Source: Beverwykella pulmonaria
Taxonomy: Eukaryota > Ascomycota > Dothideomycetes > Pleosporales > Melanommataceae
DNA length: 64,000 nucleotides
Assembly (NCBI GenBank): GCA_001599595.1
Contig: BCHH01000007.1
Span: forward strand, 458,574-522,573
Direction of reading: 5' to 3'
Shown: one piece after another, positions 3,661-21,760 of the stretch
How the letters are laid out: each line of letters opens with the position of its first letter
Numbering within the stretch: the stretch's first letter is position 1
Translations under genes and position numbers: made by a program
The notes under the pieces: generated by a model
Databases searched by the model: none
What the model saw: only the letters and a program-made list of their open reading frames with translations
What the model was told of the DNA's origin: nothing

Positions 3661-5217
3661 ATGTCAGGTGCCAGGCACATACGCGAGGAAGATATGCCTG
3701 GGCGCCTATCAGAACTAGTGAAGCATCCCTGGGAGAAGCATACAGATGAAGGCGCTGTGGACTCACAGGAGATGTCGAGGGGCACAAAATGGAAGTTGCC
3801 GCTTGAGGGTTCGCGGAAGAGAACTGGGAAGGGCGATCCTGGAGATCTAGACAGCTCTTCATCGGATAGAGAGACGAGGGCACGAGAGCAGAGACTAAGA
3901 CTTTGGGTTGAATATAGCACTGTGGATGGCCAGGATCAACAAGCCCTGCCAGTTGTAGGAGCTAACGCATCAGGGACAGACGGGCATCGAAATTGTAGCG
4001 ATGGAATTCTCAGCTCACCACACAATCCTAACGAACAGGAATCACTCGCCCGTCCTTATTATTCCGACAATTCTTCGCACCATTCTGAGCCTTCTTCTTC
4101 GGGCGGCAATACAACCCCACCGCCCTCCCCATTATCATCGGGCGTCCTCCCTTTCCACATGTCGGCCTTCGAATACGCCATTCGCCCCTACCTCGAAAGC
4201 TCGCCCGATCATAAGGACCACAGCTATACCGACCTCCCCTCTCCAATCGACTCATCCTTCTCTTCGATTTCTTCGATTCAGTCTCCGGGTTCCTCGTCCC
4301 ACGCACCATCCTTGTGGTCCAACCGGACAGAGCAGCTCTTTGAGCCGCAGCCCCCAGACCGTGGTCTCCCACCGTTCTTGCAGGGCCAAGCGACACTAGA
4401 GAGTCGACTGAGGTATCTCACACTCAAGACTGCTTTGTTCAGATGTGCTGCGTTGGCAAAGATAGCAGAGGGCTTCCAGAGCGGATTCGGAAATGTCGGA
4501 GCAACTGTGCAGACCCCTAAGTCGGGAACCCAACCCAAGTCACGCATCGGAAGTATGCGTAGAAACAGTTTGGAACTCGCTGAAGACGCAGAATATGCAG
4601 AGGCTGAGCAACGAAGAGAAACTAATTTGATTTATTCGAGAATGCACACACTCGCGCACCGTGTTGCACTGCCGATTGCGCAACGCTTTGGTCAGAACGG
4701 CTTGCAAGCCAGGTGTCTCTACTGGATTGGCAGGTCGGAGATCGGGATTGGGAGTTGTGATAACGCGAAGGCAGCGTTTGAGCGCGCGGCCTCATTAAAG
4801 GGGGAAGATGTGAATGAAGTCCTGAGGGGAGAGGAAAAGGATCTAGCTGTTTGGCTGGAGAAGGTGAAGGGGAGGGAATACGGTGCGGAACCAGAATCTA
4901 GTCCGTACAATTTCATGAGTGGATGGAAGGCGAAGGAGTTCAAAAACTGGGAATGGGAGTATATCTTGCACGGCGACGCGCACAAATTCCGTGCTAGCCA
5001 GTACCAAAGCTACCAAAAATCCAAGGAAGAAGATACGCTTCCCAAATCATCCAATGAACCCCTAAAGTCAGATGCCCAACGGCAACTTCCAGAGACCTAC
5101 CCAGAGCACGTCTTTAGTCCCTGGAATAGACTTTTCAACCGTGCGCCTTCGCCCCCTCCCGAGATGGGACACGAATCTTCTGAACCGAGCGAAAACTATC
5201 AAGAATCATCTGGGTAG
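3661..5217 (+). CDS. conserved fungal hypothetical protein, Ser/Pro-rich with TPR-like helical region
   Basis: Intronless frame, 518 aa. Residues about 1-240 are disordered and rich in Ser, Pro and charged residues, with runs such as SDNSSHHSEPSSSGGNTTPPPSP. Residues about 245-400 are predicted helical: a LESRLRYLTLKTALFRCAALAKIAEGFQ segment, then a segment resembling a tetratricopeptide unit (ARCLYWIGRSEIGIGSCDNAKAAFERAASL), as expected of a protein-interaction scaffold. The C-terminus is again Pro/Ser-rich. No signal peptide or membrane segment is seen. The start is the first ATG of the frame, directly after the stop of the upstream frame. I do not recognise a named family; function unknown. 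Confidence 0.7.
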   Translation: MSGARHIREEDMPGRLSELVKHPWEKHTDEGAVDSQEMSRGTKWKLPLEGSRKRTGKGDPGDLDSSSSDRETRAREQRLRLWVEYSTVDGQDQQALPVVGANASGTDGHRNCSDGILSSPHNPNEQESLARPYYSDNSSHHSEPSSSGGNTTPPPSPLSSGVLPFHMSAFEYAIRPYLESSPDHKDHSYTDLPSPIDSSFSSISSIQSPGSSSHAPSLWSNRTEQLFEPQPPDRGLPPFLQGQATLESRLRYLTLKTALFRCAALAKIAEGFQSGFGNVGATVQTPKSGTQPKSRIGSMRRNSLELAEDAEYAEAEQRRETNLIYSRMHTLAHRVALPIAQRFGQNGLQARCLYWIGRSEIGIGSCDNAKAAFERAASLKGEDVNEVLRGEEKDLAVWLEKVKGREYGAEPESSPYNFMSGWKAKEFKNWEWEYILHGDAHKFRASQYQSYQKSKEEDTLPKSSNEPLKSDAQRQLPETYPEHVFSPWNRLFNRAPSPPPEMGHESSEPSENYQESSG

Positions 5218-9800: not shown

Positions 9801-11135
9801 TGTAAGTACCTTCTTGGGCGTTGTTCAGCTTTGGCATATCTGGGACTGTTAGTTATGCACAATATTACCTCGATGTCCACCTACTGTTGGTATGCTTGAT
9901 TGGAGCCTGATTCTTCGCCAACTGCTGAACCATGCGCCTGAGCTCGCCTCCTACTTTCCGATAACCGGGGTCGTCGTCGCCCGTGAAACGAGCCATATCC
10001 ATGTGGTTCGCTGGAATCGTCTCGGCATGTTCTCTAGGATCGTCGAGCGACGACGAAGTGTCTGGCACAACCTGTGCAAAGTCAGCTTGCTATCTTGTTT
10101 CGCCAACGCAGTTTGATGGACGCTCCCACCTTCTCGTTCAACAGCCCAACGTTGACCGCGGTCACACCCAATGCTTCTTGGAAAGTTTTGACCTTGAAAT
10201 TGTACCTGTTCCATTGCGAGATGAAAGACTCGCGACAAAGCTCCAGCTCGGGGCTGTCTGACCCGAGCGCTCGCAGAATGGTCGCGTTCGAATCGAGCCG
10301 AAGCATAACGCTGCCAATTCTCCGAAACAGATCACCGAGAGCTGCAAAGTCTGCGCTACCGCGATGCGGCGTTCCTAAAAAGACCACGGCGGCTGTGCTC
10401 TCCAGTATGTCTCGAATTGACTCTTCTGAAGAAGTTTGCGACCGTCGCAGGACCTGGTGTGTCAGATCTGATCGCAAATATTCTTAGGCATACCTACCTC
10501 TTTGATGAGAATGCCACCCAGAGAATGACAGACAAAAATGATTGGCCGACTTTCAGCTCGCTCGCGATCTATAGCGTACAACAAATCCTTTGCATGACCA
10601 AAGATGTTGCTCTTGTTGGTCGGCTTCGACAGACCGTGCGTGACGACCGTGTCGTATCCCCAAGTCATTATTCTGGCTTCAGGACACTGTTTGGGCAAGA
10701 GATCCCTTGGCCAAAAGACCTGGCCCTGCCATTCCACCGATGCCTGAGCCGACAATATGCTCCCAGCACTGCTCCCGTTGGAGGCATCCCATGACTTGCG
10801 TTTAAAGAGGGACTTTAATAGCCCCTTCTTTCGAGATGTGGGCGCACGATTGACAGGTTCCACGTTTGGGGGGAGAAGATACGGGGACGAGCTCTTCGTC
10901 GGATACGCTGGTGAAGACTTAGTCGCCCATGTCGCAAACGGATGGCCTTGGAGACCATGAACGAAGATGATGCTATGACCGTTAGAATGCGCTCTCGGTT
11001 AAGGATGCAAACATACTCTACGATTGTCTCAACATGTGTCGGCTGATACAGTACAGACAGACCGGTGGACGAGACTGTGGTCGCAGCGGGTACCAGCAAT
11101 GCCGGCTCAGGTGGGGTCAATGGCGAGGCTTGCAT
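6840..11135 (-). CDS. SesB-like hydrolase-NACHT-ankyrin STAND receptor
   Basis: Predicted join on the minus strand: 11135-11017, 10972-10498, 10453-10130, 10071-9869, 9798-6840 (1359 aa; introns of 44, 44, 58 and about 70 nt; the last acceptor is least certain). N-terminus: SesB/DUF676-type alpha/beta hydrolase with IIFVHGLQGHPFATW, nucleophile elbow FVCHSLGGIL and FLGTPHRGSADF, then VVPDTSSSLDDPRE and ANHMDMARF typical of the fungal clade. Centre: NACHT with Walker A GKPGAGKST (about residue 442) and Walker B ICVFVDALDECE. C-terminus: about four ankyrin repeats (RGRTPLHIAAIQG, GYTPLHFASRLG, GHTPLHSAALSG, GRTALQIAVECG), then a disordered charged tail. By family, an NLR whose ankyrins sense a ligand and whose hydrolase is the built-in effector. 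The full set of motifs suggests it is intact. Confidence 0.9.
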
Positions 11136-14315: not shown

Positions 14316-17300
14316 CTAAACTGCGGTGTCCACCTTTGACAATAATACGGCAATTCTCCTAAGAGCTTGGACCTCGGGATATTTCGGCAGACCTTCCAAT
14401 TCTGTTTCCGCCTTCTGTCCCAAGCCATTCTTCAAGCTGTCTTTAGCTACCTCGATTTGTTTGTATTCATCGGACAGTTTTCCAGCCATCACCTCCTCGA
14501 GACAAGTCTTCTTAAACCCTTCCCATCGTTCCATAACACCATCTCTGATGTCCTCTGAAAATATCCGGTACTTTTGAGACTGGCGTGTGATATTAACCAA
14601 ACTTGCCGGACCTGTTGGTTTACCACCCAACTGCTTCGTGAGGAATTCACGGGTCTTCTCACTTCCGTGGCTCTTTTCATATATCAGGCAGTAGTAGCTG
14701 AGACTGGAAAGTGTTTTTCGATGATCGATACCTAGCAGGACCTGCCTGCTTTCGAACGCCTTCCGAAATATTTCCCCTGCCTCTGACAAATTTCCGGTAT
14801 ACAGATGGATCAATGCCACCTGTTGCATGCTTGACAGTGTGTCCGGATGATTGTACCGCAATCTCGCTTTCCTCATCTCTAGTATCTCTTTGCTGATCCT
14901 TTCTGCTCTTGCGTACCTTTGCTCGTGACAGAGGGCCCAAACGAAGTTGTAGCGACTCAGCAGTCGCTTGGGATGGTCTACAGGGAGTCGTTTTCTTGAT
15001 TCTAGTGAATAACGTATATCCGCGGCCGCATCTTTATTGAGATCTATTAGCATGAACGCGTAGCTGTCGATACTATCCAGTGTGTCTGGGTGATGAGAAC
15101 CTAGAACCATTCGCCGTCGAGCCAGTACTTTTTCGCATAGTTCTTGAGCGTACTTATGGTGACCCATGTGATGATGTGCTAAGGCAAAGCTGTCAAGAGA
15201 ATCCAGGTAGTCAGGGTGGCGGTTGCCCAAAACTGCATGGCGTGCGCGACAAGCTTTTCTGCTGAGCGATTCCGCCTCTTTGTACAGCCCCTGATGTCGC
15301 AAAATAACAGCATATAAAGAGGCGGAACGTAACGTCGCTGGATGGTTTTTTCCCAGCAATTCTTCTTGCAAAATCATTGCTGTGAAGGCCGTTTCCGATG
15401 CATCAGGATAGCGTCCAAGTTGGAACCAATTCCATGCAATTGCGCTTGCTGTAGCCAGAGTGCTGGGATGTGTCTCTCCAAGTGACTTGATTTGTTCGAC
15501 GTGTATCGCTGTATGCTCTTGCTCCGATTTCGAGAAGCTACCCGATAGTGCCATGATGCAGGCACGGAGACAGCGAACTTCAAGAGTATCTGGGTGGTTA
15601 GGACCAAGAATACGGCTCCTTGACTCATATATTGATTCGCACAGAAGCATCGCTCTGGTATTGTGGCCCAAGTACATCTCAACCTTAGCTAGTGTAGTGT
15701 GCGTGGTAAGTGTTTCTGGATGTTCCTTTCCAAGGATCGCTTTTTGCAGAGAGAAAATTTTGTGTGCCTCATCTTTGACGTCTCCGAACCTACCTTGACA
15801 CGTGTGAAGGTGTATTTGAGCAAGGACAGATTGGCTGGCCAGTGTTTGCGGATGTTTTTCGCCAAACAGTTCGCGCCTCCGTTCCCAAGCTTTGTGGGCG
15901 TATATCCCTGCTTTGGTGTATATGCCTTGGTCAAGTAACACTGATGCGCAACTGTGCAGGCTGCTGATCGTCATAACATGATCTTTGCCAAGTACTCTTT
16001 TCCGTTCCTTGAATAGTTGGTCAATTTCCTTACTGGCCTCAACACTACGCCCAAGCTTCTGGAGTGCTAACCCGTAGCAATCACCCCTTGTCAAATTGTT
16101 CAACACTTTGCTACCGTAATCTCTGGCAATCTCATACTTTCCACAAAGTCGGTAAATAGAGGAGAGATCTTTATAACAGCGTTGGCGAGCGTCATTGCGA
16201 GTGTCCCCGAACATGTTGTCCTTGACTTGTTCCACCTCTTGCAGTTCTTCGAGAGCATCCTGGTATTTCCCTTGACATTGCAGCAGTACAGCACGGTCTT
16301 CTTTGCACTCGAGCCAAATTCTGCTTTCCGGAGAGCTTCGAGACACTGATCCTTTGATCATTCGTTCAGCACATTCAACTGCTTTGGCGCAGCGTTTTTC
16401 AGCGTCGTCATACTGTCCCAAGCACCGTAGCGATTCCACATACATTCTTGAAGCACTCAGAGTATCAATGTGATTTTCCCCATGTTGGCGTTTACTCATT
16501 TCGTACGCATCTTTCGCAGCCTTTGACGCCCTCTTGAATTCTCCGGTATTAAGAAAGGATTGAATAATTGTCTCTCTGAACTTCAACAATCTAGGCACAT
16601 GTTTCTCAAGGCGCGATTGTTTCAAGTCGTAAATGCATGCCAGCATAGCTCCCACATGCCGTAATATTTCCTCCACTTCAATGAGATCTTGTGGAATTTC
16701 GGTATGTTTTCTGTCGAAGTTGAATGCGATCTGCAATCTTTCGACCACACCGTTGATGTGTTTGTCGGATATGCGCCCACTGTATAGATCCCTCCTCATC
16801 ATCATTTGAACAAGAGAGTGAATCCAAATGTCTTTTCCATTCGAGCCCTGAGTCAAAAGAGACAATCTTTCGAGCCTGTCGATTGTATGTTTTACTATTT
16901 CCCTGGCGGACAAAAGCTCTGGTTGAGACTGGTAAGTAAACCAAGAACTCATCTTTTGTGGGACAGTTTGCCAGATCGTGAGAGGTTGTTCCAAAAGGCT
17001 GATGCTGATGCAAGTTGGATCGAGAAAAGATAAATCTCCGCAGATGGCCGCTTCGTTGCCCTTGGGTAATTTGTGGAAGTCTAACAGGAAGTCGAATGCG
17101 CGCTTTAGAATCATTTTTTCCAGAAATCGGGGATGGTCATTGTAGTGCGTGATCGTGGTCTCCCAGTTGAGTGCCTTACTGCATTTTAGCGTTGTGGACT
17201 CACTACGACTTGCGAAGTAAATTGATACTCCTTACATTAATTCGTTCCTTCCACACTGTTTCTATGCCCACCCGCCTAGCTTTATTGGCAGCAATTTCTA

Positions 17301-18347
17301 CTGCCAAAGGGAGCCTACCAATCGCTTGAATGATATCCGGAATCAGTTTCTTCTCGTGGTCTTTTAGCGGTTTGTCATAAAAGCCGGAGAAAACACTTGT
17401 TGCCCAGACGATATCAGGAAGCTTGATCTCATAGCATAAGTCTCTGACACCAGGTAGGAGAAACCACGTGAGATCCTCAGCTATGAGCCTTGATCTCGTT
17501 GTTATCAACACTCTGCCGTCTTTAGCTTTCGCGGGAACGATATCCTTAGTATCTTGCATTGTAGCATCCCGCACATCGTCCAGGACAAGTACCCAACCCT
17601 TGCACTTAGACTGTTCGAGGCCTATGTCTTCCAGCCACTCTTTCAATTTTTGAATCCCAGGTTTCAGTGCAATATCGTCTTGATTGTCATAAATCTTTTT
17701 CAGCGCCTCATTTATTGACATAGCCAAAGTTGTTGAAGTAGAAGCCTTCAGCAAAATTGCACAGAGGTTGTTGGAGTTCAGCTCGAGATATCGATGTGCA
17801 AGCCAGGTCTTTCCTATTCCAACCATTCCCCATATAGCGCAACATGATGGCGCGTCGTTATCTGTGGCCCTTTTCAGAGCGCTGTTTATGACATTAAATT
17901 CTTCTGTCCTCTTTCTAAAATGCGGAAGATTCTTCGCAGAGTATAAACGAACGATTTCGCGAGGTTTCAAGCGTGTGCCATCTATGGAGCGTCAGAAATT
18001 ATGACGACAGTATTAGCTGGGCACCTGCTCACTGCTTCCGTAATGGTTGTTGTTCAATATGGTGGCTTCGACCTCAGTTAGTTGAAATTTGCTGAGATAT
18101 TGGGTACAGGAGCAAACATACTAACGCGAGAGTTGCGTCCACTCGCCTGTGTGATGCCGGAGACCGCACCTCCCACATTGCTTGTATTGGTGTATCCCAC
18201 CCCGCCCTGTTGAGTATTTGGACTTTTTGAAACTTGCTGATTGTAACTGGCTTCGCGGGACTGTCTAGTGGGGCGAGGCTGTCCTCCACAACCATATGCC
18301 TCCGGGGTGACAGGAATTCCTGGTGGATAGGCACTCAATGGATCCAT
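14316..18347 (-). CDS. NB-ARC-TPR STAND receptor with N-terminal Gly/Asn-rich signalling motif
   Basis: Predicted join on the minus strand: 18347-18126, 18072-18033, 17981-17236, 17174-14316; frames close exactly (1288 aa). The first exon and the 40-nt second exon give a disordered Pro/Gln/Asn-rich head with a motif at residues 53-88 (TNTSNVGGAVSG, then TILNNNHYGSN across the first intron). NB-ARC: P-loop GMVGIGKT (about 139), kinase-2 GWVLVLDDV (about 216), GRVLITTRS (about 243), GRLPLAVEIA (about 309). Residues about 500-1200 hold some twelve kinesin-light-chain-like TPRs (recurring LG..HPDTL.S). By family, the TPRs sense, NB-ARC oligomerises and the head signals. The head motif recurs at the C-terminus of the divergently transcribed hydrolase. 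The first intron's donor (GTTAGT) could instead be GTATGT three bases on, so the head is the least certain part. Confidence 0.88.
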
Positions 18348-19030
18348 GGTATCACTGAAGATTGTAAAGTAGTAAGAGGATTGACAGCCTTCAGGAATGA
18401 ATTGCTGTTCGAATCATCAGCGCAAATTACATTGAAGTAATTTGAGGTTAGGCGAGCCGAATGCTGAGCACGTCAAAGACTTGAGGCAAATATCACTGCT
18501 GATGTAAAGTGCGCATAGACGTGGTAGCAAATGAATGATTTTGACCCCTCTATTAAACCAGGGTAAAGAATGAGCATTCGTATTCTCCCAGCCACTGATG
18601 ACGAATAGCAGCCTAGGATGTTCAGCTGTCCCATCACAGAGTCGCATTAGCTGAAGTCAAGACCTAAACTCGCTTAACCCAGCTATACACGGCCCCACTC
18701 TAATGGCTATATCGAGGACCGGCCCGCTTAGAACGACATGGCCATGAACGCCAAAGGCAACACACATTTCATATTCTATCCTAAGTGGGTGATGACTGCA
18801 GCTACCGCTTCTTATCATCGTACAATGCTTACTTGCATGCATTGACGTACGTACCAGTTGCAGGCAAAGTGGATGAAGGTTGAATTATAGGCTCTAACGA
18901 CCCAGATCAGGTCGATTGCTCAAACTCTTCGAATATTTAGGTTTCTGCCTTCCCCATCACTCTGTTTGTAAGCTTGTATGCTTCAATAGCCAAAATCGAT
19001 AGCTTGGTTTCTCTAAATTCTTGACTGCAA
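18348..19030. promoter_or_regulatory. shared divergent promoter region of receptor and effector
   Basis: The only spacer (683 bp) between two genes transcribed away from each other, the NB-ARC-TPR receptor and the SesB-like hydrolase, so it must carry both promoters and may co-regulate them. I see no strong operator or gene in it. Confidence 0.5.
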
Positions 19031-20370
19031 ATGATGGATCTCAACATTGTTTCGGACGATTTGAACAAACTCGCTGATGGAGGACTCAGACCAGTAGTAG
19101 AGTAAGAGATATGTTATCCATGACTTCCTTACTTATTCACGTACATTAGCATCGTCTTCGTTCACGGACTTCGGGGTCATCCGAGAGACACCTGGGTTGC
19201 AGAAGACCCGCAAGACAGGGATGACAAAATCTTTTGGCCCGCAGAACTTCTTCCCCAGACAATAAAGAACGCTCGGATCTTCAGTTTTGGTTATCACACC
19301 GAGTTCGCAACATTCTATCCAGTTCTCCCCAAACAAATTCCCCACACGAGTATCGATCATCACTCGACAGGCTTAATCCTTAAGCTTGGTAACTTCCGGA
19401 GTCACGACAACACCGTGAGCACTGCCCTTGCTCCCTACCTAAGAACTAATGTGATTGAAAGCTGAACACTTTTCCAAAACAGTCTACGCGCCCAATAATC
19501 TTCGTCGCTCACTCTCTCGGAGGTCTTGTTGTCGCTAACGCCCTCGCAAGCAAATACGACGACGATGCGCAGGGTCAGAAAGTTGTCGATCATACTTATG
19601 GTACCATATTCCTCGGAACCCCCTTCAAAGGCTCAGATAAGGCGCCCTGGGCCGAAACAGCACGTCGAGTGCTCGACTGGGTCGGCGGCGATACCAATGA
19701 CCTCACGATCCAAGACCTCAACAAGCGCTCCGAAAAGCTCCAACAGATTAGCATACGATTCCAACTCTTGGTGCAGAGTCGAGCGACATCGAAGGAGCTG
19801 AAGCCGATTCAAGTTGCATGTTTCTTCGAGGAGATCAAGACGAAGAAGTCAATTCTCAAGGTCAAGAAGGATCTTGGGCATATTGTTACGGCGGCTTCTG
19901 CGACATTGGCCGGGTATAAAGAGGTTGGAATTAATGCGGACCATGTTGGCATGTGCCGATTCCACAGTGTGGATCAGGCCGGGTACAAGCTCGTCACTGG
20001 GAAGATCAACGAGATGATCGCAAACTTTAAAAAGAGCAGTGCTGAGCTCACGGTGAGTGCACCACTACCTCACTTATACGAGATTTATTTGCTGACATGT
20101 AAAATAGAAAGAAGGGCAGACCGTGGTTAATATTGGCGATGTGAATATGGGAGATAACAATCTTAACATTGGCGGATTTATTGCGGGAGTAGTTCTCGGT
20201 ACCACTGAAAATGCAGTCATAACGACAATCAACAATACTGTATGTGAGAAAATGAACAGATTTCTAGAAAGGGAACCACTGACGTTTAACTTCTCTAGTA
20301 TGGGGCTGAGGTTGCCCAAGCTATGGCAGCCCACCAAAACAGACAGAATGCAAATAATGTAAACAACTAA
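19031..20370 (+). CDS. SesB-like alpha/beta hydrolase with C-terminal amyloid-like motif
   Basis: Predicted join: 19031-19101, 19150-19414, 19483-20052, 20108-20239, 20299-20370; all phases agree (369 aa). The catalytic core has VFVHGLRGHPRDTW, nucleophile elbow IFVAHSLGGLVVAN (Ser in GHSLGG-type setting) and TIFLGTPFKGS, the signature of fungal SesB/DUF676 serine hydrolases. There is no NACHT; the protein instead ends in a Gly/Asn-rich tail from residue about 303: TVVNIGDVNMGDNNLNIGG, then VVLGTTENAV, TTINNTYG and an Asn/Gln-rich end. VNIGDVNM resembles the RHIM core pattern [IV]-Q-[IVL]-G-x-x-N-x-[ML] with N for Q. The tail resembles the N-terminus of the adjacent NLR. By analogy with NLR/SesB pairs, this is probably the effector switched on by that receptor. 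A second ATG three bases on could also start it. Confidence 0.85.
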
Positions 20371-20862: not shown

Positions 20863-21760
20863 GCAGCGTAGTCAACGTAGCGTAGTACGGTACGGGAGGT
20901 CCTTGTCGCTGTACGGTACGGCTTGTATGGTGGTTACGTACGTACGGCGACCGCCAAAAAAGGTGGATTACGGTCCGTAACCGTAGCAGGGCATCCAGGG
21001 CATGCTACGGAGCGTATAGCACTTCCAAATTAGATAATTGGTGATTGTTTCTTGGTGTTGAGCTTTGTTTGAGGAGTTTCTTAAGTAGGGAGCTTGAATA
21101 TAGGTGTACGATTGTATTGAGATAAATCTTTGAGGTTGACTCAGGAACGTTGAGAAGGTTATATACTCCTGTGAGGTCACGTGACCCTGTCTTAGTCACG
21201 TGATTCTTTCGAGGACCCGTGACTGGTCCGTAGCCTGCCCGAGGGCCTTCAGGGGCTGGCGATGTATAATATTGTCACACCATGCCTCATAAAATTGCTA
21301 AAAAAAAACGCCTTGAGTACTCTCACACGATTAAGATAGCTAAGATAGCTCTAGTAACAGCAGGCGGCTAGTAGAAGCTTCAAAAGCTCTCCTCAGCGTG
21401 GCAGTATAATAGGGCGTATACGCGGCTAAAGCTTGAGATGATTGCAAAGCCTAAGATGGTAAGTATTGCTCTATTTTGTATGCAAAGGTTAATAAGNTAC
21501 TGCGTTGGNTTCAGCNAAACACTTAAGGCAATATAGCCTGCGACGCTTAGTGATTGATTCAGGTGTTGTGCTACATCAAAATCAGCTGCCGAAACAGCCA
21601 AAATACCACTAAAGAAGGCGGCCGTACAGCCGTAATTACGGGTCAAATTATATACAAATACGGCTACGGTACGGCTCATATGGCTGTTACGTACGTACGG
21701 AGCAATTCACCATTACGGTCCGTAATTGTACGGCGTACTACGGTACGTTGGCCACGCTGC
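20863..21760. mobile_element. TIR element (MITE-like) with nested solo LTR
   Basis: Imperfect terminal inverted repeats of about 35 bp (left GCAGCGTAGTCAACGTAGCG, right end its inverse ending CGTTGGCCACGCTGC) are flanked by a 6-bp direct repeat CCTTAG (20857-20862 and 21761-21766). The subterminal parts repeat TACGG/GTACGTAC words on both sides. No transposase is visible, so it is non-autonomous. A solo LTR sits inside at 21006-21280. Three ambiguous bases (N) occur at about 21497-21516. Confidence 0.7.
21006..21280 (-). mobile_element. solo LTR, family B (copy 1), nested in TIR element
   Basis: On the minus strand it begins (G)TGTGACAATATTATACATCG and ends CTCCGTA, about 275 bp, with a perfect 5-bp target duplication CATGC (21001-21005 and 21281-21285). 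A related copy at 44397-44619 ends CCTCGTA. CACGTGA words occur in the middle of both. Confidence 0.8.

Follow-up and report, generated by a model that had tools for sequence, protein, structure and literature searches.

A Gly/Asn-rich motif shared by a fungal NLR and an adjacent SesB-type hydrolase is probably an undescribed amyloid-signalling motif

In a stretch of 64,000 nucleotides from contig BCHH01000007.1 of Beverwykella pulmonaria (here called the window), we identified a motif that is shared by the predicted products of two divergently transcribed genes. One encodes a NOD-like receptor (NLR) with an NB-ARC domain and TPR-type repeats, and the other a SesB-type hydrolase, referred to below as the effector. 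The motif is a stretch of about 40 residues rich in Gly, Asn, Val and Ile; the receptor carries it ahead of NB-ARC, and the hydrolase carries it at its C-terminus. A second fungus and a further locus of the B. pulmonaria genome show the same layout. The pairing of NLR and effector motifs is real and recurs, and it is of the amyloid-signalling kind. The motif itself, which fits none of the published patterns compared, is probably an undescribed amyloid-signalling motif, and we infer amyloid formation from the arrangement. In our estimate there is a good chance that receptor and effector form a signalling module of the type known from fungal amyloid signalling, based on a separate motif family.

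A motif shared by receptor and effector

The motif occupies residues 57-86 of the receptor and 322-348 of the effector. Both copies follow the ordered pattern N-[VI]-G-G-x-[VI]-x-G, then an Asn at +15 and TI(L)NN..YG; a preliminary description of this DNA had reported the pattern at these residues, with an Asn exactly 15 residues past the first in both copies, and both observations stand. In Smith-Waterman alignment the effector motif scores 57 against the first 92 residues of the receptor, and when the receptor N-terminus was shuffled 2000 times at constant composition, no shuffle reached this value. Natural sequences were sampled as 2881 tiles of 92 residues each, taken from the fetched proteins and from six-frame open reading frames (ORFs) of the window and 50 loci. 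The regions expected to hold the motif, namely 110 C-terminal residues in SesB homologues and 95 N-terminal residues in NLR homologues, had been excluded beforehand. Six of these tiles reach 57, and every one of them comes from overlapping loci and represents the exon of the effector itself. No tile unrelated to the pairs (0/2881) reaches this score or any of the other cognate and Peltigera scores given below (55, 60 and 69).

Recurrence in Pyrenochaeta and likeness within clusters

A search with receptor exon 4 returned three proteins, of which P0121 from Pyrenochaeta sp. MPI-SDFR-AT-0127 is the sole close relative. It is an NB-ARC-TPR protein that is 47% identical to the window receptor over 1221 aligned columns, the BLAST alignment beginning only at receptor residue 101. 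The best SesB match to the effector, P0001, comes from the same strain, and the two proteins are assigned to contigs of equal length (181,248) with close locus tags (475504 and 475497). The N-terminus of P0121 (GNSNLTVGGVGTGYING..NYG) scores 55 against GNNNLNLGGYLTGVIMG in P0001, with 0/2000 shuffles reaching this value.

The two motif copies of one cluster are more alike than copies from different clusters. Cognate pairs score 57 (window), 55 (Pyrenochaeta) and 60 (the second cluster described below), compared with 50, 46 and 34 for non-cognate combinations: the window tail on the Pyrenochaeta NLR (50, 0/2000 shuffles), the Pyrenochaeta tail on the window receptor (46, 8/2000) and the window tail on the NLR of the second cluster (34, 121/2000). 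At 46 there is a tie with four further tiles, which represent one unrelated window ORF in overlapping loci. Each NLR N-terminus best matches its own partner (57 versus 46 for the window, 55 versus 50 for Pyrenochaeta), and the N-termini of the two orthologous NLRs are not significantly alike, their score being reached by 255/2000 shuffles. The same likeness within clusters is described for sigma clusters in the accessible text of PMC3321046.

A second cluster in the same genome

Searches of the B. pulmonaria genome gave 19 SesB matches, grouped into 14 loci, and 30 NB-ARC matches. When the SesB and NB-ARC loci and the window were scanned with two profiles, the only clear tail besides that of the window SesB was found in a SesB on contig C2; the NLR exon of C2 appeared only at E 1.3, and other weak matches had E 0.4 or worse. 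The C2 cluster (L051/L052, G000:C2:907800-915600) consists of a HET-domain gene, a SesB gene and an NB-ARC-TPR NLR gene, with the motif in all three. The NLR adjoins the SesB, its N-terminus reads AFGAISNNYGVVVGDALNSHIIGSQTNNNYYPG, and the SesB/NLR pair scores 60 (0/2000 shuffles). An NLR with the motif at its N-terminus is thus seen directly beside a separate effector with the motif at its C-terminus in the window and in C2, and in Pyrenochaeta such proximity is suggested by the contig data. The preliminary description had staked its proposal on the pairing being found again, and it is, in the Pyrenochaeta strain and in this second cluster.

The HET-domain gene (PF06985, E 1.4e-13) lies about 2-3 kb from the SesB gene, on the side away from the NLR. 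It ends in a SesB-type tail that duplicates the 3' end of the SesB gene, with 354 aligned columns at 87% identity that include the intron and the 3' flank.

Several minor features accompany the C2 genes. Transposase-like ORFs were noted by eye near the cluster. The TPR array of the C2 NLR (L052, about 3700-4300) has near-identical repeats with ambiguous bases, which would fit a repeat array that is collapsed or variable. Elsewhere, L066 (G000:C7:1617371-1617505) carries stops and frame shifts and looks like a decayed copy of the C2-type NLR N-terminus.

The motif as a tail of stand-alone SesB proteins

A search of 5.8 billion proteins yielded 383 homologues of the effector, and the 120 listed were examined. 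A conserved C-terminal tail is present in 57 of these 120 (iterated profile, domain E<=0.01), and the motif ends a median of 17 residues before the C-terminus. The other 63 include models that end, by eye, at the intron before the tail, as well as at least one protein, P0078, that carries a PP motif instead. The column majorities of the tail read [IV]xxG[DN]V...NxGG[VI][VI]xG[HN][VI]xGTTx[DN]A...[IL]xGSxT, followed in many proteins by YG or a similar end. Among the named hosts of proteins with the tail are Pyrenochaeta, Glarea, Leptodontidium, Venustampulla, Nannizzia and members of Xylariales; we take these to belong to several classes of Pezizomycotina, and on that assignment the tail is spread over several classes.

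The effector matches DUF676 (E 2.5e-5), and several of its homologues are named SesB protein. The columns corresponding to Ser123 and His266 are nearly invariant or invariant among 50 homologues. The effector has the putative Ser nucleophile and His of a SesB hydrolase, with an alpha/beta-hydrolase fold predicted from homologue P0009. An AlphaFold2 model of P0009 (50 sequences) has a mean pLDDT of 78 and a confident hydrolase core. Its motif stretch is predicted as neither helix nor strand (pLDDT about 58-69) and is followed by a C-terminal helix. Foldseek matched the model best to serine esterases, thioesterases and monoglyceride lipases, at E about 1e-5 and low TM-scores (0.3-0.4 by query). 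A profile of the motif had no match among solved structures up to E 10.

Eleven SesB loci of this genome (L005, L008, L009, L012-L018 and L020) run, by eye, into an NLR-type NTPase region. In stretches with about 1.5 kb of flank, the motif occurs in none of these 11 loci and in two of three stand-alone-like SesB loci (Fisher probability 3/91, about 0.03, by hand). The split agrees with the expectation that the motif accompanies stand-alone effectors and not those fused to an NLR, with L011 as the exception.

Other NLRs and exchange of N-terminal domains

A protein search with the N-terminus of the C2 NLR returned six proteins (P0124-P0129). P0127, from the lichen Peltigera, carries the full motif (FGAISNNSGVVLGNASGQVHLIGSQTNNHYHPG) ahead of a NACHT-ankyrin body, whereas the C2 NLR has an NB-ARC-TPR body; the C2 SesB tail scores 69 against P0127 (0/2000 shuffles). 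P0126 has NNYGVV only, a partial motif, and P0128 has something else at its N-terminus; P0124 and P0129 are partial models lacking this region. P0125 joins a PP-like N-terminus (FGDRNRGFQAGIING) to a C2-type NB-ARC body. Within B. pulmonaria, L056 (G000:C10:1026430-1026678, minus strand) is an NB-ARC NLR that shares its backbone with the C2 NLR and has a PP-like N-terminal motif, and at L064 (G000:C1:1750542-1750715, minus strand) a HET domain, recognised by eye, is fused in cis to a C2-type NB-ARC. Because of these arrangements, we conclude that HET, PP-like motifs and the present motif occupy one slot.

Comparison with published motif families

The families of fungal amyloid-signalling motifs given in the accessible text of PMC12261475 are HRAM, sigma, PP, PUASM 1-2 and, provisionally, GDQN. 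By the sequence comparisons made here, the motif fits none of the published patterns compared (HRAM, PP, sigma, PUASM 1 and GDQN), which agrees with the earlier suggestion of an undescribed or little-known family. Pfam was searched at E<=10, where the HMMER filters drop most matches above 0.1. For sigma (GxGxQF and GGTQN repeats; Pfam NACHT_sigma), the regular expression was negative, without a positive control, and no Pfam match was found. The HRAM spacing of HET-s (N1, hydrophobic 3/6/14/16, G17, N18) was absent by an expression built from the published positions, likewise without a positive control. These pattern and Pfam results uphold the earlier view that the motif is not of the HET-s or sigma type. 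The PP pattern (FxGx(x)NxGLQLxGxNxGxL), PF17046 and a profile were all negative for the motif copies; P0078, as a control, matches both PF17046 and the PP expression, and the PP-like P0125 matches PF17046 only below the cut-off and misses the expression. According to PMC12261475, as far as its text is accessible, the Pfam entry PF17046 'SesB' is a misnamed PP. The patterns of PUASM 1 (FxGxGxQxxGxGxF) and GDQN (NxxxGxQYxxxGxGDQNxVS) are absent from the window copies, the PUASM comparison covering the PUASM 1 pattern. The RHIM core G-(I,V)-Q-(I,V)-G is also absent from both.

In its arrangement the window pair most resembles known systems. In the sigma system of Nectria haematococca (sesA/sesB/het-eN), as described in the accessible text of PMC3321046, a SesB-type hydrolase and an NLR also lie side by side, have a C-terminal/N-terminal motif in common that had been missed through an unnoticed NLR intron, and carry copies that are most alike inside one cluster. 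However, sigma consists of GxGxQFNxx and GGTQNINT units repeated three times, and neither element is present in the window copies. The NWD2/HET-S system (HRAM) is likewise an NLR/effector gene pair, often divergent, with a common motif (PMC3321046, in part), but the window effector is a hydrolase and not a HeLo protein. In PP systems (PNT1/HELLP/SBP) one NLR may serve two effectors, one of them a putative lipase (PMC7885112, in part), to which the present system can be likened; PP-like motifs replace the present motif on a related NB-ARC backbone, although the latter is about twice the length of the 17/18-residue PP consensus. PUASM and GDQN are families newly added in 2022 and 2025 that were recognised by similar pairing (PMC9815663 and PMC12261475, both in part), with PNP_UDP and SesA effectors.

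Further motifs have been reported without an assigned family or neighbours, including the ascomycete NLR34 (29 NLRs, no neighbours; PMC9815663, in part). NLR34 could in principle be related to the present motif. The accessible portions of PMC5485727, PMC4986451, PMC7885112, PMC10197012, PMC12258605 and PMC12881547 contain no description of the motif. A text search of the literature, whose coverage leaves out most subscription journals, found none either, and five motif strings gave no match in it.

Weighing the interpretation

Several observations weigh against reading the pair as an amyloid-signalling module with its own motif family. The window receptor copy is marginal by profile score: with three profiles of SesB tails from other species, 11, 61 and 57 of 5000 shuffles reach its score, and with two bias-corrected profiles 111 and 48 of 2000 do so (45 and 14 of 2000 for P0121). 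The profile scores are weak, and the window receptor by itself would therefore be suggestive and not proof. The NLR-side copies found number only four, plus the partial one in P0126, and they are shorter than the SesB tails, without the GTTxNA segment. A profile of window-like tails misses the NLR copies of C2 and Peltigera, whose scores are reached by 132 and 2007 of 5000 shuffles, so that the family spans sub-variants that one profile fails to join; a profile of NNxGVV tails recognises both copies (0 and 0 of 5000). The linkage of P0121 and P0001 is deduced from their equally long contigs, the Peltigera copy comes from the NLR alone, and at the stand-alone-like SesB locus L011 (C4) the motif was not found within the stretch scanned. 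The splicing of both gene models, which are proposed from sequence, rests on homologues. At C2, 11 of 28 synonymous and 6 of 101 non-synonymous sites differ between the HET and SesB motif exons, a low ratio of non-synonymous to synonymous change (dN/dS 0.11) that is tempered by the remaining copied DNA being only about 7.5% diverged (by arithmetic); selection on the HET tail is for this reason likely, but not shown.

These profile scores, which lie within reach of composition shuffles, are what one would expect if the receptor match were a coincidence of convergent Gly/Asn-rich low complexity and the SesB tail had an unrelated role. We consider this very improbable, as the pairwise scores exceed all shuffles and all unrelated natural tiles, three cognate pairs behave alike, and the SesB loci fused in cis lack the tail in the stretches scanned. 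A homotypic docking tag without amyloid, such as a short beta-hairpin or augmented sheet by which an oligomerised NLR recruits the hydrolase, would give an identical genomic pattern, and the motif is single-copy and longer than the published PP and HET-s units. However, its position, its N/G/V/I composition, the contrast between stand-alone and in-cis SesB, the likeness within clusters and the exchange with PP-like motifs all match published amyloid-signalling motifs (PMC3321046 and PMC9815663, both in part), and the motif is predicted to be unstructured in the monomer; a docking tag therefore seems unlikely to us.

A further explanation concerns the ancestry of the motif and is compatible with an NLR/effector module. 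The motif may be an extended, Q-less branch of the RHIM/PP superfamily, in which the core G-phi-x-x-G corresponds to G-phi-Q-phi-G with Q replaced by V or I. Tails P0048, P0035 and P0024 read GVQVG, GVQTG and GVQAG at the core, Q stands at this place in 4 of 49 tails counted, and both core Gly columns are invariant in an alignment of 12 sequences from both sides. PP-like motifs and the present motif also replace each other on one NB-ARC backbone, and when three SesB-tail profiles are applied to the PP-like N-terminus of P0125, 42, 2 and 3 of 5000 shuffles reach the score. In contrast, profile-profile comparison with three PP-type sequences gave a probability of 1.5% with a different stretch aligned, no copy compared matches PF17046, and the published PP pattern is absent from both window copies. 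The preliminary description had placed the VNIGDVNM of the hydrolase close to the RHIM core; this likeness does not hold up, neither window copy having [IV]-Q-[IVL]-G. We regard such an ancestry as possible but rather doubtful.

Proposed mechanism and implications

As an amyloid-signalling module, the pair might work as follows. The TPR array would sense a ligand, and the NB-ARC domain would oligomerise and gather several N-terminal motifs, which could adopt a cross-beta fold and act as a seed. On this seed the hydrolase tail, otherwise unstructured, would be templated, and the clustered or released hydrolase may then attack membrane lipid or another ester, leading to a cell-death or immune response. 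In the C2 cluster one NLR may drive two effectors, the SesB hydrolase and the HET-domain (TIR-like) protein; if so, a single NLR oligomer would set off both a lipase and a HET effector at the same time.

A broader proposal is that the motif represents an amyloid-signalling family that is undescribed but widespread, perhaps the one that stand-alone SesB proteins usually carry across Pezizomycotina. NB-ARC-TPR and NACHT-ankyrin NLRs would use it, and in this genome it would also control a HET-domain (TIR-like) protein in trans; for this we hold the chances to be evenly balanced. Amyloid signalling in fungi serves as a model of prion-like immune signalling, with only a handful of motif families listed in the accessible text of PMC12261475, and a further family, found in 57 of the 120 SesB homologues listed, would supply a mechanism for many NLR/effector pairs. 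HET is a frequent incompatibility domain and a remote relative of TIR (PMC10197012, in part). A HET-domain partner would be a new kind of pair, since HET/NLR pairs were sought but not found in a 2012 screen (PMC3321046, in part). With the C2 HET protein it can be asked directly whether templating is able to activate HET.

Gene models and neighbouring features of the window

The exon structures proposed in the preliminary description, a four-exon receptor of 1288 residues (stop not counted) on the minus strand and a five-exon effector of 369 residues on the plus strand, both translate, and all seven predicted introns begin with GT and end with AG, with the less usual ends GAG (receptor intron 1) and AAG (receptor intron 3). 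Coordinates are those of the window.

14316..17174, minus strand: receptor exon 4, end of the NB-ARC region and TPR-type repeats, including the stop codon; 47% identity to P0121
17236..17981, minus strand: receptor exon 3, NB-ARC domain (Pfam PF00931, E 6.6e-9)
18033..18072, minus strand: receptor exon 2, remainder of the motif, VEATILNNNHYG; NYG...G also before NB-ARC in homologue P0121
18126..18347, minus strand: receptor exon 1, residues 1-74, start codon at 18347, motif residues 57-74 at 18179-18126 (gene model)
18348..19030, no strand: divergent intergenic region, 683 bases between both start codons (from the gene models)
19031..19101, plus strand: effector exon 1, with the ATG (gene model)
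19150..19414, plus strand: effector exon 2, alpha/beta-hydrolase (gene model and Pfam)
19483..20052, plus strand: effector exon 3, hydrolase core with AHSLGG (Ser123, presumed nucleophile) and His266 (gene model, Pfam and homologue columns)
20108..20239, plus strand: effector exon 4, motif tail TVVNIGDVNMGDNNLNIGGFIAGVVLGTTENAVITTINNT; 61 bits with a profile from SesB tails of other species
20299..20370, plus strand: effector exon 5, motif end (YG) and N-rich C-terminus (gene model); P0003 reads NNTFGAEAAQ over the junction

The 5' receptor exons are required because the first Met in the open frame of the NB-ARC exon falls within the P-loop. P0121 has its NYG...G stretch immediately before NB-ARC, and its alignment backs the junction at receptor intron 3 (ERIN|ALNWETT versus ERLNAHDWETT). 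P0002, P0003 and P0006-P0009 read without a break at the sites of effector introns 3 and 4.

Two other features of the window were noted. A second SesB-like hydrolase, at 9951-10998 on the minus strand and downstream, is fused in cis to a NACHT-type NTPase (locus L016), and the motif tail was not found within the stretch scanned there. Downstream of the effector, positions 20880-21760 form a repeat-like stretch with runs of the GTACGTAC type and ambiguous bases.

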